From the NCBI GenBank assembly GCA_947245585.1, contig CAMXPV010000004.1, forward strand, positions 1-64,000: a stretch of DNA of 64,000 nucleotides, in the 5' to 3' direction. Under the pieces are notes generated by a model, which saw only the letters and a list, made by a program, of their open reading frames with translations, ran no database searches and had not been told where the DNA came from. The DNA comes from an uncultured Lachnospiraceae bacterium. Lineage in GTDB: Bacteria > Bacillota > Clostridia > Lachnospirales > Lachnospiraceae. The position numbers were made by a program, and so were the translations under genes. Shown here in pieces: positions 42,290-48,484 of this stretch. Every line of letters begins with the position of its first letter. Within the stretch, counting starts at the first letter, position 1.

Positions 42290-43585
42290 ATGGAAATCAA
42301 ACGCGACAGCTACTTACAACAGCTTATTTCTTATCGTTTTGACGGACTTGTAAAAGTGATAACAGGAATCCGCCGTTGCGGAAAATCCTATCTGCTCAAA
42401 AAAATATATCGGGATTATCTGCTTGCAAACGGCATAAAAAGCGAACAAATCATCACCATTGACCTTGATCTTGTCAAAGACATAAAATACCGCAATCCGC
42501 TTGTCTTATCCTCCTATGTGAGAGAGCAGGCGAATGAATCCGCCAAAGAGCTGTATCTTTTTGTAGATGAAATTCAAATGTCGGATGAAGTTGACAATCC
42601 TTATAACCCGAATGGAAAAAAGATCACTTTCTATGATGCACTGAACGATCTTCGCAGTCTGGACAACGTAGATGTCTATGTGACCGGGAGTAATTCCCGC
42701 ATGCTTTCCAGTGATATTTTAACAGAATTCAGGGGCAGAAGCGACGAGATCCGCATACATCCATTGAGTTTTTCGGAATACTATGCAGCGGTCGGCGGCG
42801 ATAAAAACGAAGCCTTTGACGATTATGCTTTTTATGGCGGTATGCCGCTGATTTTATCCCGCCCCGACAGCGCGGCTAAAATGAGTTACCTAAAATCCCT
42901 GTTTACCGAAGTATACCTCAAAGATATCGTTGAACGCAAAAATATTTCAAGACAGGATGTTCTGGAACAAATTTTAGATTTACTTTGTTCCTCCATCGGT
43001 TCTCTCACAAACCCGGCAAGAATAGCCGATACTTTAAAATCAAAGCAAACGGCAGGGGTGTCCTCAAACACCATCCGCACCTATATTGAACATTTACTGG
43101 ACGCTTTTCTCTTTTCGGAAAGCAAGCGGTACGATGTCAAGGGAAAGTCTTATTTTGATTCCCCAAGCAAGTATTATTGTGAGGATATCGGTCTGAGAAA
43201 TGCCAGAATAGGCTTTCGCCAACAGGAAACAACCCACATCATGGAAAACATTGTATACAACGAGCTGATTAACCGTCGATTTTCCGTTGATGTCGGTGTG
43301 GTTTACGCCAGAACCATTAATCAAAATGGTAATTCCGTGCGTACACCGAAAGAAATTGATTTTGTCGTCACTTCCGGCGGAAAGAAAACCTACATTCAAT
43401 CAGCCTACGCCATATCAACAGAAGAAAAACTTGAAGCGGAATTAAGGCCGTTTTTTCTGGTCAACGATTCCTTCCCCAAGATTATTGTCCGAAAGGATAT
43501 CGGAAAAAGATGGTACGATGAAAATGGAATCCTTAATATCAGCCTGATTGATTTCCTTTTGGATAAGGACCTGATAAGAGAATAA
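42290..43585 (+). CDS. AAA_14/DUF4143 ATPase
   Basis: A 431-residue ATP-binding protein. Walker A is GIRRCGKS (residues 26-33), Walker B is LYLFVDEIQ, and TGSNSRMLSSDILTEFRGRSDEIRIHPLSFSEYY is the AAA_14 sensor region. The C-terminal half is DUF4143, ending with a restriction-nuclease-like EIDFVVTSGGKKTYIQSAYA. These proteins are common, often duplicated, and poorly understood; a toxin-like or DNA-related role has been suggested. Confidence 0.9.
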   Translation: MEIKRDSYLQQLISYRFDGLVKVITGIRRCGKSYLLKKIYRDYLLANGIKSEQIITIDLDLVKDIKYRNPLVLSSYVREQANESAKELYLFVDEIQMSDEVDNPYNPNGKKITFYDALNDLRSLDNVDVYVTGSNSRMLSSDILTEFRGRSDEIRIHPLSFSEYYAAVGGDKNEAFDDYAFYGGMPLILSRPDSAAKMSYLKSLFTEVYLKDIVERKNISRQDVLEQILDLLCSSIGSLTNPARIADTLKSKQTAGVSSNTIRTYIEHLLDAFLFSESKRYDVKGKSYFDSPSKYYCEDIGLRNARIGFRQQETTHIMENIVYNELINRRFSVDVGVVYARTINQNGNSVRTPKEIDFVVTSGGKKTYIQSAYAISTEEKLEAELRPFFLVNDSFPKIIVRKDIGKRWYDENGILNISLIDFLLDKDLIRE

Positions 43586-43617: not shown

Positions 43618-44493
43618 ATGCACTTTGTGACAGCAAAAGGAATCCTATCGTCAAAAAACGGCATGAATCTGTACCGGGGCTGTTCTCATGGATGTATTTA
43701 CTGCGATTCCAGAAGCAAATGCTACCATATGGAGCACGCCTTTGAGGACATAGAGGTAAAGGAAAACGCGATTGCCCTGTTGGAACACTCCTTAACGCAC
43801 AAGCGGAAGAAATGCATGATCAGTACAGGTTCCATGACAGATCCCTATATCCCTCTTGAAATGGAGTTGGGTAATGTCAGGAAAGCCCTGCAACTGATCT
43901 TGGAACACGGTTTCGGATTTACCGTTATAACAAAATCAGACCGCATTTTACGGGACATAGACCTTTTACAGAAAATCAATGAAAAAACCAAATGCGTCGT
44001 ACAGATGACCCTGACCACCTACGACGAGGATTTGTGCCGGAAAATAGAGCCGAACGTATGCACAACGCAGGCTCGCGTCACGGCTCTCAAAAAGCTGCAT
44101 GATGCGGGGATTCCCACAGTTGTATGGCTTTCGCCCATTTTACCCTTTATCAATGATACGGAAGAAAATATTTCCGGCATCCTGAAAATGTGTGCAGCAG
44201 CAAAGGTTCATGGTATCATCTGTTTCGGCATGGGGCTGACCCTGCGCGAAGGAAACCGGGAATACTTTTACAGTCAGCTAGACCGGCTTTTTCCCGGTTT
44301 AAAGGAAAAATATATCCGCGCATACGGAAATCAGTATGTCATTGACAGCCCAAACGCTAACCGTCTGATGTATCTGTTTCATCAGACCTGTGAAAAAAAT
44401 AATATTCTCCACAATAACGAACAAATTTTTCAGTATCTGCAGACTTTTGAGGAAAAAGAGACTGAAAAGCAGCTGAGTATTTGGGATTACTAA
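43618..44493 (+). CDS. Radical SAM protein of the SPL (spore photoproduct lyase-like) family
   Basis: A 291-residue radical SAM protein. The cluster motif CSHGCIYC is at residues 22-29, after SSKNGMNLYRGC. GSMTDPYIPLE, FTVITKSDRILRD and QMTLTTYDEDLCRKIEPN are typical of the SPL-like/Rv2578c subgroup. It lacks the full-length SplB N-terminus, so it is a paralogue, not the genuine lyase. A GGAGAG site precedes the ATG. Confidence 0.87.
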   Translation: MHFVTAKGILSSKNGMNLYRGCSHGCIYCDSRSKCYHMEHAFEDIEVKENAIALLEHSLTHKRKKCMISTGSMTDPYIPLEMELGNVRKALQLILEHGFGFTVITKSDRILRDIDLLQKINEKTKCVVQMTLTTYDEDLCRKIEPNVCTTQARVTALKKLHDAGIPTVVWLSPILPFINDTEENISGILKMCAAAKVHGIICFGMGLTLREGNREYFYSQLDRLFPGLKEKYIRAYGNQYVIDSPNANRLMYLFHQTCEKNNILHNNEQIFQYLQTFEEKETEKQLSIWDY

Positions 44494-44519
44494 TTGAATC
44501 CTGAATGGAGCTGATGATT

Positions 44520-44576
44520 TATCGGCAAAATATATTCGTATTATTTTGGTTAAAATATGGATATATTTTGCCGATA
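44520..44576. promoter_or_regulatory. 16-bp palindrome at the fic promoter
   Basis: TATCGGCAAAATATAT (44520-44535) and ATATATTTTGCCGATA (44561-44576) are perfect inverted repeats with a 25-base spacer, itself containing a smaller ATTTT/AAAAT dyad. A TATAAT at 44581-44586 follows. Likely operator; the Fic protein's own N-terminal HTH could bind it. Confidence 0.65.
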
Positions 44577-44621
44577 GTGTTATAATAATGCCAATAAAAT
44601 ATTTTTGAGAGGTTCAGCCTT

Positions 44622-45518
44622 ATGAAATATATGAATGTAAACACGGCCTCCGGAAAATGGGGGGTATCGGAGAGAAGTGTGCGCAATTATTGTTCCGAGG
44701 GTAAAATTCCCGGTGCAATACTTGACGGTAAGACATGGAAAATTCCCGCCGATGCCAAAAAGCCTGTAAGAAAACAAAGAACAGGAAAAACGGCAAAAAA
44801 TTTACTGACAAGGCTGAAGCTTGAAAAAGAGTCTGAAATTTCAGGCGGTATTTATCATAAGGTACAAATTGAACTGACATACAACTCCAATCACATGGAA
44901 GGCAGCCGGCTTACGCACGAGCAGACGAGATATATTTTTGAGACAAATACAATCGGAATACATGACGGAACGCTCAATGTAGATGATATTGTAGAGACGT
45001 CAAACCATTTCAGATGTATTGATTTTGTAATAGATTCCGCTAACTATCAATTAAATGAATCCTTTATCAAACAACTCCACGCAATCCTAAAAACAGGAAC
45101 CTCTGACAGCAGAAAAGCGTGGTTTGCCATTGGCAGTTATAAGCGTTTTGAAAATGAGGTGGACGGAAAACCTACAACAAGGCCAACTGATGTCCCAAAG
45201 GAAATAAAACAGCTACTCAGAACATATCATCAGAATAAAACGAAAACATTACAGGACATTATTGCATTCCACTATTCGTTTGAAATCATCCATCCTTTTC
45301 AGGATGGCAACGGACGTATCGGCAGACTGATTATGTTTAAGGAATGTCTGCGAAACGGAATCACGCCGTTTATCATAGATGACAATCTTAAGGAATTTTA
45401 TTACCGCGGATTAAACAAGTGGAAAAAAGAGCCCGGATATTTGATCGACACCTGTTTGACAGCGCAGGACTGCTTTAAGAAATATATGGATTATTTTGGA
45501 ATCGAATACATTTTATAG
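44622..45518 (+). CDS. Fic-domain AMPylase with N-terminal HTH
   Basis: A 298-residue protein. Residues 1-45 form a small MerR/excisionase-like helix-turn-helix (NTASGKWGVSERSVRNYCSEGKIP). The Fic domain contains the complete HPFQDGNGRIGR motif (catalytic His about residue 224), so it should transfer AMP or another nucleotide part to a target protein. The inhibitory motif SNHMEG at residues 89-94, before the Fic core, classes it as a self-inhibited (class II) Fic. A large palindrome precedes the gene. Confidence 0.92.
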   Translation: MKYMNVNTASGKWGVSERSVRNYCSEGKIPGAILDGKTWKIPADAKKPVRKQRTGKTAKNLLTRLKLEKESEISGGIYHKVQIELTYNSNHMEGSRLTHEQTRYIFETNTIGIHDGTLNVDDIVETSNHFRCIDFVIDSANYQLNESFIKQLHAILKTGTSDSRKAWFAIGSYKRFENEVDGKPTTRPTDVPKEIKQLLRTYHQNKTKTLQDIIAFHYSFEIIHPFQDGNGRIGRLIMFKECLRNGITPFIIDDNLKEFYYRGLNKWKKEPGYLIDTCLTAQDCFKKYMDYFGIEYIL

Positions 45519-45527
45519 TCAAATCCA

Positions 45528-45557
45528 TTGACTCCACTGAATAAAACATAGTATAGT
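45528..45557 (+). promoter_or_regulatory. Promoter of the interrupted papain-like gene
   Basis: TTGACT (45528-45533), 18-base spacer, TATAGT (45552-45557). With GGAGAGGAG at 45594-45602 and ATG 45609 it forms a complete expression start for the ORF that is then broken by the inversion. Confidence 0.7.
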
Positions 45558-45608
45558 ATTATTGTAGAAACAAACGTAGTAGTTTGAACAGTCGGAGAGG
45601 AGCGGTTT

Positions 45609-46538
45609 ATGACTAATTTAAAACCTGGAGATATTTTAATATTTGAGGCCGGAGATAACTCATCTCCACCATGGTGCCGTCCTGATAACACATGGCCGCA
45701 TGGCTGACATTGGAGTCCGTCAGCTTGGCAATACATTTGCTGAGCCAGTTGCAGCGGTATGGTTTGCAGTAAGTGTAAGGAGGCGGAGAAAGGGGACAAT
45801 GCATATTTGCTTCGTCTCAATCCGGAGCAGGATGCAGCGCCATTACTGGCTGTCGCCAAGGAATATTTAGACGAAACAGTTTATTATGACTATCCGGATC
45901 TGGTCTTCTTTGCAGGGCTGATCATCTACAGGGCGATCCGTTCCACGCCGCGGTGGCAGAAGATTATGGATTACATTCTGGAGCTTGCCTGTTCGGAATT
46001 GGATAAAATGCTTAACAAACTGATCCATAAAGACGGTAAAAAGGCAATGGTATGCTCCCAACTGGTCTATCAGATTTATCTGGACTGCGGAGATGCTTAC
46101 AAGATTCGCATTCATGACGGACTGCTTCAGTCAGGCGATATGATGCAGTCCGCGCCGGAAGCGGGTACAGAGTATATCTGTCTTGCCGAGCTTGCGGAAA
46201 AACGCGGCGATACCACATCCGCGGAAAACACGGCTGCGGCGGACAGTTTCGCATCGGCAGGCTTGGAAGAGCCGGATAAAGAGCCAAATATGAAAGCGGT
46301 TTTCAGGGAACTTTACGACGCAATGGAGGAAAGCGGGCAGGAGGATTGCGAACTGTGTACCTCTAACGACTTAAATACTCTTGTAGATAAGACCAAGAAG
46401 TTTCTTGACAAGATGGAGGCACTTTTGGAGCGTGCCGGTGTAGAATTACCGGTTCGTGCGCTTTTTGTGGCACCCAGTGATTTACTGAAAGCAGAAAATC
46501 TGGACAATAAAGGAACCGTTCAGATTACCAGAAACTAA
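45609..46538 (+). pseudogene. YiiX-like permuted-papain gene, broken by an internal 86-bp inversion
   Basis: From ATG 45609 the frame reads MTNLKPGDILIFEAGD and then fails after 32 codons. Downstream, from 45747 on, the same frame is open to 46538 and encodes KGDNAYLLRLNPEQDAAP.., a membrane-proximal helical part, and AMVCSQLVYQIYLDCG with the expected catalytic Cys. The missing middle, WLSKCIAKLTDSNVSHAAMC with the catalytic His, is encoded on the opposite strand of 45661-45746. With that segment reversed the gene is one intact frame of 309 residues. The C-terminal 110 residues are acidic and lack similarity. It may be phase-OFF, an inactivated allele, or an assembly error. Confidence 0.85.
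45661..45746 (-). other. Inverted 86-bp segment (candidate invertible DNA)
   Basis: The segment is bounded by AACT (45657-45660) and AGTT (45747-45750). Read on the minus strand it encodes LSKCIAKLTDSNVSHAAMCY and DGTMVEM, which fits in frame between the two plus-strand halves (52 + 86 = 138 bases, 46 codons). The inverted repeats are only four bases long. Both present junctions lie in small local palindromes (GGAGAT-aactc-ATCTCC on the left, GCTG...CAGC on the right). Confidence 0.85.
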
Positions 46539-46550
46539 GGAGCCTGCCAA

Positions 46551-47288
46551 ATGTCCAAAAATGACAGCCGAATTTTACATATTTATTATTTTGCAGAAAT
46601 AATCTTTTTCCTCATTATAAAAGCAGGAGAGCAGATATGGAGAGAACCCGGAAAAGGAGATCCTGGCATTCCGGGCTCTCCTTTGGCGCTCCTGCGCTAC
46701 TGCACGATCGTATGCAATTTTCTCATGATTCTATATCTGTATCTGCGACATGGACGTAATCTGCATTTTCGTGAAAACTGGATCCCCCTTGCTTTTGCGC
46801 TCACTTTGACGGCGGACTGCTTTATGTGTATCATTCCCGATAAACGCATTTGGGGCTATTTGTTCTTCACCTTGGTGGAAACAGTCTACATGATCTATAT
46901 GAAACCTACATGGAAAAATGTTTCCCTGCGCCTGATTTTGTATGCCGCACTGTTTCTGCTAATTTGGCGTATCAAAGCGTTGAGTGCCGACAATGCATTC
47001 GCGTTGGCAAATATGGTGCAGCTTACAGTCAATCTGTTCTGCGCATGGATATGGTATAGAATGTCGAGCAATCGGAAAACGCTGTTATTTGCATTGGGAA
47101 TTACCTTTTTTGCCGGATGCGATTATTCCATTCTCGTCCGCACCATTTTTCTAAAATTCCCAGATGGTCTGGCCTACACGATTGCTGCATTTCTTGTCTG
47201 GACCTGTTATATTCCGGCACAAGTGCTTTTGCTCCGCAGTTATGTGGAGGGGATAAACGAAAACCTGCGGCCTGAGAGCACTGCATAA
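46551..47288 (+). CDS. Unknown polytopic membrane protein
   Basis: A 245-residue protein with about seven or eight membrane helices (for example IYYFAEIIFFLIIKAG, TIVCNFLMILYLYL, LFFTLVETVYMIY, FALANMVQLTVNLFCAWIWY). Not assigned to a family; the layout recalls YhhN-type proteins but this is uncertain. It follows the interrupted papain-like gene by 12 bases with an AAGGAG site and is probably in the same transcript. Confidence 0.7.
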   Translation: MSKNDSRILHIYYFAEIIFFLIIKAGEQIWREPGKGDPGIPGSPLALLRYCTIVCNFLMILYLYLRHGRNLHFRENWIPLAFALTLTADCFMCIIPDKRIWGYLFFTLVETVYMIYMKPTWKNVSLRLILYAALFLLIWRIKALSADNAFALANMVQLTVNLFCAWIWYRMSSNRKTLLFALGITFFAGCDYSILVRTIFLKFPDGLAYTIAAFLVWTCYIPAQVLLLRSYVEGINENLRPESTA

Positions 47289-47308
47289 ATACAAATAGAA
47301 GTCTTATT

Positions 47309-47346
47309 CCAACTATGAAACAAATACACATTTATTTCATAGTTGG
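47309..47346. terminator. Hairpin between convergent genes
   Basis: CCAACTATGAAA (47309-47320) and TTTCATAGTTGG (47335-47346), a perfect 12-bp stem with a 14-base loop. It stands between the membrane-protein gene and the leftward recombinase gene, so likely a bidirectional terminator, though the T-run is weak. Confidence 0.55.
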
Positions 47347-47361
47347 TGCGCATTCATCGGG

Positions 47362-47424
47362 TTATTTTATCTCCTGCCTGAGTACATGTTCAACTTCATT
47401 CTCTGCCTCCTGTTCTTCAAACAT
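47362..47424 (-). CDS. Possible 20-residue acidic small ORF after the recombinase
   Basis: ATG at 47424 overlaps the recombinase stop codon (GATGTTTGA) and reads MFEEQEAENEVEHVLRQEIK to a TAA at 47364-47362. The upstream GAGGG is too close for a good ribosome site. It may be a coupled microprotein or chance. Confidence 0.25.
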   Translation of the reverse strand: MFEEQEAENEVEHVLRQEIK

Positions 47425-48484
47425 CCCTCAATTTCACACTCCGCGCGGCCTTCCTCCGATTCTGATCTTTGATCGCCGCATAATGCTTTCTGGTTGTCCC
47501 TACGTCCGAGTGTCCAAGAACATCCGCCACCAGATAAATGTCCTCGGTTTCCTGATAAAGCGTCGTGCCAAAAGTGGACCGGAGTTTATGGGGGGTAATC
47601 TTTTTTTGAGGAACAAACTCTCTGGCATACTTTTCCACCAGATTTTCCACCGCGTGGACGCTGATCCGTTTCTTCTGCAGAGAGAAAAACAGCGCGTTTT
47701 CTTCTCCCGGCAGAGCCTGTTTGGCGATCTGGACACGGGGGCCTTCTATGTAATCCAACAAGGCTTTTTCCACCTCTTCCCCGAAATACAATACCGCCTC
47801 GTTTCCGCCTTTTCGGATAATACGGATGCTGTTTTCCCGGAAATTCACATCGTTTAAATCCAGTCCGACACATTCCGAAACGCGGATACCGGTGCCTAAA
47901 AACAGCGTCACAATGGCAATATCCCGGACTTTTGTCTTTAAGAAAAAGTCTTTTTTCTTTCCCGTCAGTTCCTTTTCGTAATTGTCCAGGCTGTCCAGAA
48001 AAATAGCCACCTCATCCGGCTCCAGGTGAATAATAGCTTTCTCGTGAATTTTCGGCATATCAACCTGCATAGCCACATTTTTGGAAAGCAGTTCCTTCTT
48101 AAAGTAATAGTCAAACATGCTGCGCAGGGAGGACATTTTCCTTGCAATGCTGCCTGCCCCGTTTTTCTGCTCCCCGTTTTCCGATTCATAATATTTCAGG
48201 TATTCCTGGTACTCTTCGATATCGAGAGCTGTCAGGTTATCCAGATCGCGTAACGTCACTTCCCGCACGGCTTTGTTTTTCAGAGCCGGATTTTTCTCAA
48301 TCAGGAAACGCAAAAAAACCTGAAAATCATAGGCATAGGAAATTCTTGTCTTCGCGCTGGATTTCTGTTCGATCGCCCGAAAATAATCCCTCGTATACGG
48401 CGGAAGTTCCTCCAACATCCCCCGAAGCTGCAAAATATAGCCCGTTTCCCTTTTTTCATGATAAGTACGATTTTTTCCTGCCAT
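47417..48484 (-). CDS. Tyrosine recombinase (XerC/D-like)
   Basis: A 355-residue site-specific recombinase. The N-terminal core-binding domain (SSAKTRISYAYDFQVFLRFLIEKN) precedes the catalytic domain, whose residues are all present: Arg in LGTGIRVSECVGLDL, Lys in the IRIIRKGGNE turn, HKLRSTFGTTLY, LGHSDVGTTRKHY with the nucleophile Tyr. It is intact and could be a chromosome-dimer resolvase or an invertase; its gene is about 0.9 kb from the interrupted papain-like gene. It follows ttcA by 15 bases on the minus strand. Confidence 0.9.
   Translation of the reverse strand: MAGKNRTYHEKRETGYILQLRGMLEELPPYTRDYFRAIEQKSSAKTRISYAYDFQVFLRFLIEKNPALKNKAVREVTLRDLDNLTALDIEEYQEYLKYYESENGEQKNGAGSIARKMSSLRSMFDYYFKKELLSKNVAMQVDMPKIHEKAIIHLEPDEVAIFLDSLDNYEKELTGKKKDFFLKTKVRDIAIVTLFLGTGIRVSECVGLDLNDVNFRENSIRIIRKGGNEAVLYFGEEVEKALLDYIEGPRVQIAKQALPGEENALFFSLQKKRISVHAVENLVEKYAREFVPQKKITPHKLRSTFGTTLYQETEDIYLVADVLGHSDVGTTRKHYAAIKDQNRRKAARSVKLRDV

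Follow-up and report, generated by a model that had tools for sequence, protein, structure and literature searches.

An 86-bp piece of DNA (positions 45,661–45,746) lies inverted within a gene of an uncultured Lachnospiraceae bacterium and splits the reading frame of a predicted permuted papain-like enzyme. Most likely, the break is a real, recent microinversion killing an accessory hydrolase gene, and an origin in replication or repair, i.e., a genuine and recent mutation, is assigned a probability of about 0.72. The window, meaning the whole stretch of 64,000 nucleotides analyzed, lies within contig C4 (112,577 bases), which belongs to a draft genome comprising 3,685,846 bases in 93 contigs with a completeness of 96.35%.

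Broken Frame and Inverted Piece

Direct reading of the frame from the ATG at 45,609 yields 32 codons followed by TGA (45,705–45,707). The same frame reopens at 45,747 and continues for 263 codons to the stop codon at 46,536–46,538; the intervening bases 45,609–45,746 number 138, equal to 46 codons, and the downstream piece stays in register. The 5' piece (45,609–45,660, plus strand), aligned to the N termini of three related proteins, comprises codons 1–17 plus one base and ends in AACT. The inverted piece (45,661–45,746, minus strand), delimited by alignment to the relatives and base scoring, encodes enzyme residues 19–46 including the His of an SH motif and the Glu of a VE motif; in one phase, its minus strand encodes LSKCIAKLTDSNVSHAAMCYQDGTMVEM, and the preceding Trp spans the breakpoint. 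The 3' piece (45,747–46,538, plus strand), recognized as an open reading frame (ORF) and by alignment, holds the remaining codons with the stop and carries the Cys of VCSQLVYQIY. Upstream, a consensus scan detected a promoter-like TTGACT-18-TATAGT element (45,528–45,557, plus strand), a weak candidate, since five such sites occur in the region compared to a shuffle mean of 1.8.

The nearest homologous records are L003 (uncultured Lachnospiraceae bacterium) and L005 (uncultured Acetatifactor). L003 contains locus L008 of genome G041, which belongs to the same genus as the window genome; L007 and L008 correspond to the contig of L003, L009 lies within L004, and none of these three was counted again. 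In L003, L004 and L005, the homologous gene is uninterrupted, with 299, 299 and 298 codons, respectively, the last value being counted from the second ATG (2962) of a listed ORF that begins further upstream. All three hold the matching residues 18–46 in frame, exactly where the window holds the reverse complement. Read on the minus strand, 45,661–45,746 matches them at 75, 72 and 75 of 86 bases; left on the plus strand, it matches them at 17, 14 and 14, a difference that, judged from these alignments, is not due to chance. Accordingly placed single minus-strand blastn matches of 90, 90 and 93 bases (E 1e-22 to 1e-28) were obtained, nested in a collinear plus-strand match for L003 and L004 and located between two plus-strand matches for L005. 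When every position was scored against the relatives, starts at 45,657–45,661 tied with ends at 45,750–45,746 as best endpoints, joined for L005 only by a sixth pair (45,656/45,751); the ties result from a 4-bp inverted repeat, AACT/AGTT, at the ends.

The original prediction of an 86-bp inversion with these endpoints, of a split frame with 46 whole codons before 45,747 and of a His lost to the inversion was borne out by these results. Beyond that prediction, the reversed piece was also found to hold the probable Glu of the triad (E45, numbered as in L003). The longest ORF left starts from ATG 45,759 and comprises 259 codons; it keeps the Cys, with its His and Glu partners gone. With this Glu and the conserved His both inside the reversed piece, the product would almost surely be dead.

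Predicted Gene Product

Six distinct homologous loci (L003, L004, L005, L012, L013 and L014) were compared, and the region is open in all of them, the window alone being broken. Identities to L003 are 92% for L004, 72% for L005, 38% for both L012 and L013, and 24% for L014. Residues S32-H33, V44-E45 and C149-S150-Q151 are invariant throughout, and the permuted order His–Glu–Cys (H33, E45, C149) is present in 6/6 homologues. The catalytic residues His49, Glu64 and Cys154 of BcPPNE follow the same order, as do the catalytic His, Glu and Cys of YiiX (PMC3142127). A Tyr as the fourth catalytic residue was sought between Glu and Cys; several tyrosines occur there, and the equivalent one could not be placed from the alignments.

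Profile PF05708 scored 17.3, 18.2 and 23.3 bits for L003, L004 and L005, all under the cut-off of 27, and NF008552 scored 25.2, 25.0 and 42.1 bits compared to a cut-off of 279; the matches to the NCBIfam YaeF and YiiX models were all under their curated cut-offs. A profile search against the PDB returned 2if6 at 5e-4. Furthermore, a Foldseek search with the L003 model returned 2if6 (YiiX) and 3kw0 (BcPPNE) at ranks 1–6 with probabilities of 0.95–1.00, these matches being weak (E 1.1e-3 to 4.1e-2, TMq 0.30–0.34) and followed by a next match at E 1.0. The AlphaFold model used was built on six sequences and was the best of five (pLDDT 81.5, the others 43.5–50.5); with four of the five models at 50.5 or less, it lends weak support to a C92 fold. 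About 130 residues extend past the last matched domain position, and no signal peptide was seen by eye at the N terminus.

Based on motif order, profile matches and fold matches, the gene is predicted to encode a distant YaeF/YiiX-like (C92, Peptidase_C92) relative of the permuted papain enzymes, which supports the earlier YiiX-like assignment, though at scores below curated cut-offs. It resembles the YaeF/YiiX-like enzymes (BcPPNE, 3kw0; YiiX, 2if6; PMC3142127) in its SH motif, the following Glu and the late CS Cys, and these enzymes also rank first among its fold and profile matches in the PDB. It differs from them in falling below the Pfam and NCBIfam cut-offs, in its approximately 130 extra residues and in being broken in the window.

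Distribution and Age of the Break

The C92-like gene is rare. At E 1e-6, it was matched in 3/77 genus genomes and in 4/397 genomes drawn from the family, and the 3' piece as query matched 2/98 relatives, the window's own genome being included in each of these counts; three loci were matched by the 3' piece in genome_contigs, and no plasmid relatives of this piece were found. A second, complementing copy was likewise not detected at E 1e-6 in the window's genome, where just the two pieces of the broken gene were matched. Immediately downstream, an open YhhN-family gene (46,551–47,288, plus strand; PF07947, 1.1e-09) has a matching neighbor ORF in L003 and L004. The stretch 45,512–47,248 (plus strand) aligns with both of these loci at approximately 74% identity and is unmatched at this place in L021, L022 and L025, which are genus neighbor loci spanning both sides (L023 and L024 do not span and are uninformative). 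Moreover, the genomes of L021, L022 and L025 (G033, G098 and G100) lack a match to the gene, so that, judged by gene content, the C92-like and YhhN genes are regarded as a rare accessory pair.

The gene is otherwise undecayed. No further stop or frameshift occurs across the 263-codon 3' piece, and dN/dS values compared to the three close relatives amount to 0.07–0.19 for the reversed piece and 0.12–0.16 for the 3' piece; those of the 17-codon 5' piece (1.0, 1.0 and 0.14) derive from too short a sequence to judge. Over the 3' piece, 22–28% of bases differ between the window and L003, L004 or L005. In a tree of the 3' piece only, the window is sister to L003 and L004 with L005 outside (support 0.940), and in the protein tree the window branch (0.175) is little longer than those of its sisters (about 0.10 + 0.05). 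The absence of stops and the low dN/dS values indicate a recent event.

Two readings fit this state: constraint that lasted until a short time ago, or an artefact arising in the library or the assembly, with the gene intact in the cell. The latter explanation gains from the undecayed state of the gene, from the draft status of the genome with its 93 contigs and from a survey of contig C4, in which no second microinversion was detected in 92,353 bases aligned to 100,000 bases of G033 contig C12. This survey sought nested opposite-strand matches in one contig and excludes the broken gene, which is absent from G033; with an identical program and word size, the 86-bp piece is detected against L003, L004 and L005, the sensitivity being weak for inversions much under an estimated 40 bp. 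The lack of a second case also gives no sign of an inversion-prone genome. A 4-bp repeat is far below the k-mer length of assemblies, and mis-traversal of the graph should not yield two clean junctions; graph mis-traversal at 4-bp repeats is therefore implausible. A library chimera is possible, but fold-back chimeras yield one junction rather than two in register. An artefact would require both junctions to exist in reads, and the site lies 45.6 kb inside the 112.6-kb contig. Since two clean in-register junctions would each need read support, an artefact is disfavored and considered unlikely.

Breakpoints and a Proposed Rewritten Arm

The left arm of the repeat, AACT (45,657–45,660, plus strand), is present in L003, L004 and L005, whereas alignment places GGCA, GGCA and AGCA in these loci at the position of the right arm, AGTT (45,747–45,750, plus strand). 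The repeat is exactly 4 bp long, and the flanks match at 1/12 (6 bp), 5/30 (15 bp) and 5/40 (20 bp) positions, which is at or below chance; hence no repeat of the recombinase type is present, and AACT/AGTT does not resemble a recombinase site in its sequence. For random inversions of 60–119 bp in the 44–48 kb section of the window, the probability of at least 4 bp of homology at the ends is 0.020, so that some microhomology was probably involved.

All three close relatives carry CA at 45,749–45,750, where the window completes AGTT. Given that the window is sister to L003 and L004 with L005 outside, CA represents the older state by parsimony. Both bases were changed in the window to the exact letters complementing AACT; differences in both bases at adjacent 3'-piece positions where the relatives agree amount to 10/370. 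It is somewhat probable from this alignment that the second arm was rewritten from an older (A/G)GCA to AGTT, although the argument depends on just two bases and three relatives, and two ordinary substitutions preceding the event provide a counter-reading. A rewritten arm would point to copying from the other strand, since a conservative flip cannot rewrite an arm.

Neighboring Recombinase and dif-Like Site

A tyrosine recombinase gene (47,417–48,484, minus strand) is located 0.9 kb from the end of the broken gene. According to its NCBIfam profile match and the genus survey, it represents an XerS-like core gene, its best NCBIfam match being XerS with 223.7 bits, under the cut-off of 267. Next to it, a repeat scan and the genus survey identified a single-copy, dif-like quasi-palindrome of 36 bp (47,310–47,345, plus strand), regarded here as context of the inversion. 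Allowing up to two mismatches, this site occurs at one place each in 20/77 genus genomes (13/39 good ones) and is identical in 16 of these 20; at this threshold it is absent from the other 57, among them G041 and G110, whose C92-like genes are intact. In 20/20 cases, it shares a contig with the XerS-like gene and lies 3' of this gene in one fixed relative orientation, at distances of 9 bp to 23.5 kb (up to 5 kb in 18/20). In contig C4, the cumulative GC skew reaches its maximum at 46,659, at a distance of 0.65 kb from the site; in contig C12 of G033, peak (29,392) and site (35,335) are 5.9 kb apart, with skew values of 1,328 and 1,258, respectively.

Linkage of a single recombinase to a terminus site is described for xerS and difSL of streptococci and lactococci (PMC5357621, PMC2731167). 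By analogy, the 36-bp site and the XerS-like gene read as the dif site and recombinase of a putative single-recombinase Xer module in Lachnospiraceae; papers on such a module in this family were not found among the best 8 of 42 and 8 of 12 literature matches. The distance between the broken gene and the probable dif site is 0.8 kb (gene end) to 1.7 kb (gene start). Since the dif-like site adjoins the recombinase and lies near the cumulative GC-skew maximum, the gene is probably located near the replication terminus. A replication accident where forks meet is plausible from this position.

The DNA flanking the dif-like site (44,493–47,309 and 47,346–47,416) varies between related species, as compared for L021, L022 and L025. 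A Fic/DOC protein with an N-terminal helix-turn-helix is encoded at 44,622–45,518 (plus strand; PADLOC PDC-S04 4.7e-109, SoFic 1e-22), and its gene is matched at this place in L022 and not in L021. Between this gene and a radical SAM gene, a 23-bp inverted repeat of 91% identity with an 11-bp loop (44,520–44,576) is likewise matched in L022. Further upstream, an AAA_14/DUF4143 gene (42,290–43,585, plus strand; PADLOC PDC-S01 at 8.3e-112) is unmatched in L021 and L022, though both its neighbors are matched. Judged from these comparisons, accessory cargo such as the C92-like/YhhN pair and the Fic gene appears to land around the dif-like site.

The proximity of a tyrosine recombinase and the exact register of the pieces could also be explained by a programmed intragenic inverton, in which a site-specific recombinase flips the 86-bp piece and thereby switches the enzyme on and off; the genome harbors 11 Phage_integrase and 5 Resolvase matches in total. 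Intragenic DNA inversions have reportedly been found in bacteria (Chanin, 2024, according to the title). In the gene studied here, neither repeats of recombinase length nor, for the nearest recombinase, a dedicated linked enzyme was found. The repeat measures 4 bp compared to 10–40 nt for invertons in the text available from PMC11892184, with flanks at chance level. The XerS-like gene is core (70/77 genus genomes, 39/39 good ones), the C92-like gene being confined to the 3/77 noted above, and G041 has an intact C92-like gene, yet on a different contig from its XerS-like gene. Action of the XerS-like protein at the breakpoints was examined and rejected, these matching the dif-like half-sites at 6 and 8 of 16 positions compared to a background mean of 7.39 (342 AACT sites). 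Moreover, a conservative flip cannot account for an AGTT that is missing at that place in L003, L004 and L005. Repeat length, flank similarity and a core XerS-like gene that is unlinked in G041 disfavor a recombinase-driven flip, and a programmed inverton is regarded as highly improbable.

Proposed Origin of the Microinversion

Since only AACT/AGTT is shared between the ends, an extended repeat is missing and the relatives carry CA, the pattern is better explained by template switching or microhomology-mediated repair than by a conservative, site-specific recombination event. In the proposed course of events, which would probably have taken place near the terminus while DNA was being replicated or a break repaired, the nascent strand would have run through AACT (45,660), jumped to the opposite strand at the distal end of the 86-bp stretch, been extended in reverse as far as the complement of AACT and then resumed on its first template at 45,751. 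The stretch would thereby be reversed, and AGTT would probably have been written over an older (A/G)GCA; the inverted form may subsequently have become fixed in the strain.

A clean reversal between short inverted repeats, as expected for template switching, is what was found. In yeast, inversion of a spacer occurs together with homogenization of the arms (PMC8604942), template-switch tracts of up to 128 bases are reported for apes (PMC7954356), and 28/59 human–chimpanzee microinversions feature repeats of 4–7 bp (PMC8755829). However, the 86-bp tract exceeds the 17–33 bp of the latter microinversions, the median tract in PMC7954356 is 12 bases, and a zero net length change is unusual among the events described there (5.5%). 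For many microinversions whose repeats are short and imperfect, template switching was considered hard to invoke in the text available from PMC8755829, and microhomology-mediated break-induced replication was proposed instead; the data obtained here do not separate these two routes.

A related explanation assumes a standing polymorphism, i.e., a mixed population generated by rare, recombinase-free template switching, of which the assembly shows the commoner form. Spacer inversions are described as reversible in PMC8604942, and the repeat arms persist, so that a further switch would be possible in principle. The junction 24-mer of the inverted form was absent from viral_contigs, which represents a weak test, and such a polymorphism is considered very unlikely. 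Still more remote than a programmed inverton is an ON/OFF switch operating without a recombinase site, in which a hydrolase gene by the terminus flips often at a 4-bp repeat. If true, a fraction of cells would lose the enzyme in each generation through fork-collision or template-switch events. Phase variation is the reading of greatest interest and has the weakest support; literature searches combining intragenic invertons with phase variation, or invertons with Lachnospiraceae and invertase, gave no matches for these exact term combinations. Of the three origins originally offered, a mutation has the strongest support, little favors a phase-variable OFF state, and an assembly or library error is possible.

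Relation to Known Inversions and Implications

The mutation favored here resembles human–chimpanzee microinversions in being a clean, short reversal at very short inverted repeats, but those measure 17–33 bp and, in the text available, none affected a protein (PMC8755829), whereas here 86 bp were reversed and a bacterial gene was broken. As in yeast REG2, a spacer inside a coding sequence was reversed and one arm was probably rewritten to a perfect repeat; REG2 differs in having arms longer than 9 bp around spacers that are a few bases long (PMC8604942), compared to 4-bp arms and an 86-bp spacer in the present case. Invertons are enzyme-mediated and reversible and feature repeats of 10–40 nt (PMC11892184), none of which is shown here. 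The likeness to the bacterial inversions attributed to Chanin, taken from the title only, consists in DNA reversed inside a gene. An inversion at short repeats in a bacterium (coli) was reportedly treated by Schofield in 1992, again according to the title. The kind of event is already known, and its location in a coding sequence, its length of 86 bp and its very short repeat make it a tidy, unsurprising example.

The C92-like gene provides a clean and recent coding-sequence microinversion in a bacterium, for which both arms and three relatives inform the ancestral state. It indicates that one copying event can kill a gene while every piece of it remains readable. Such breaks are easily annotated as a short ORF and may be mistaken for phase variation. 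Furthermore, the adjacent dif-like site and xerS-like gene in Lachnospiraceae may prove useful more generally.
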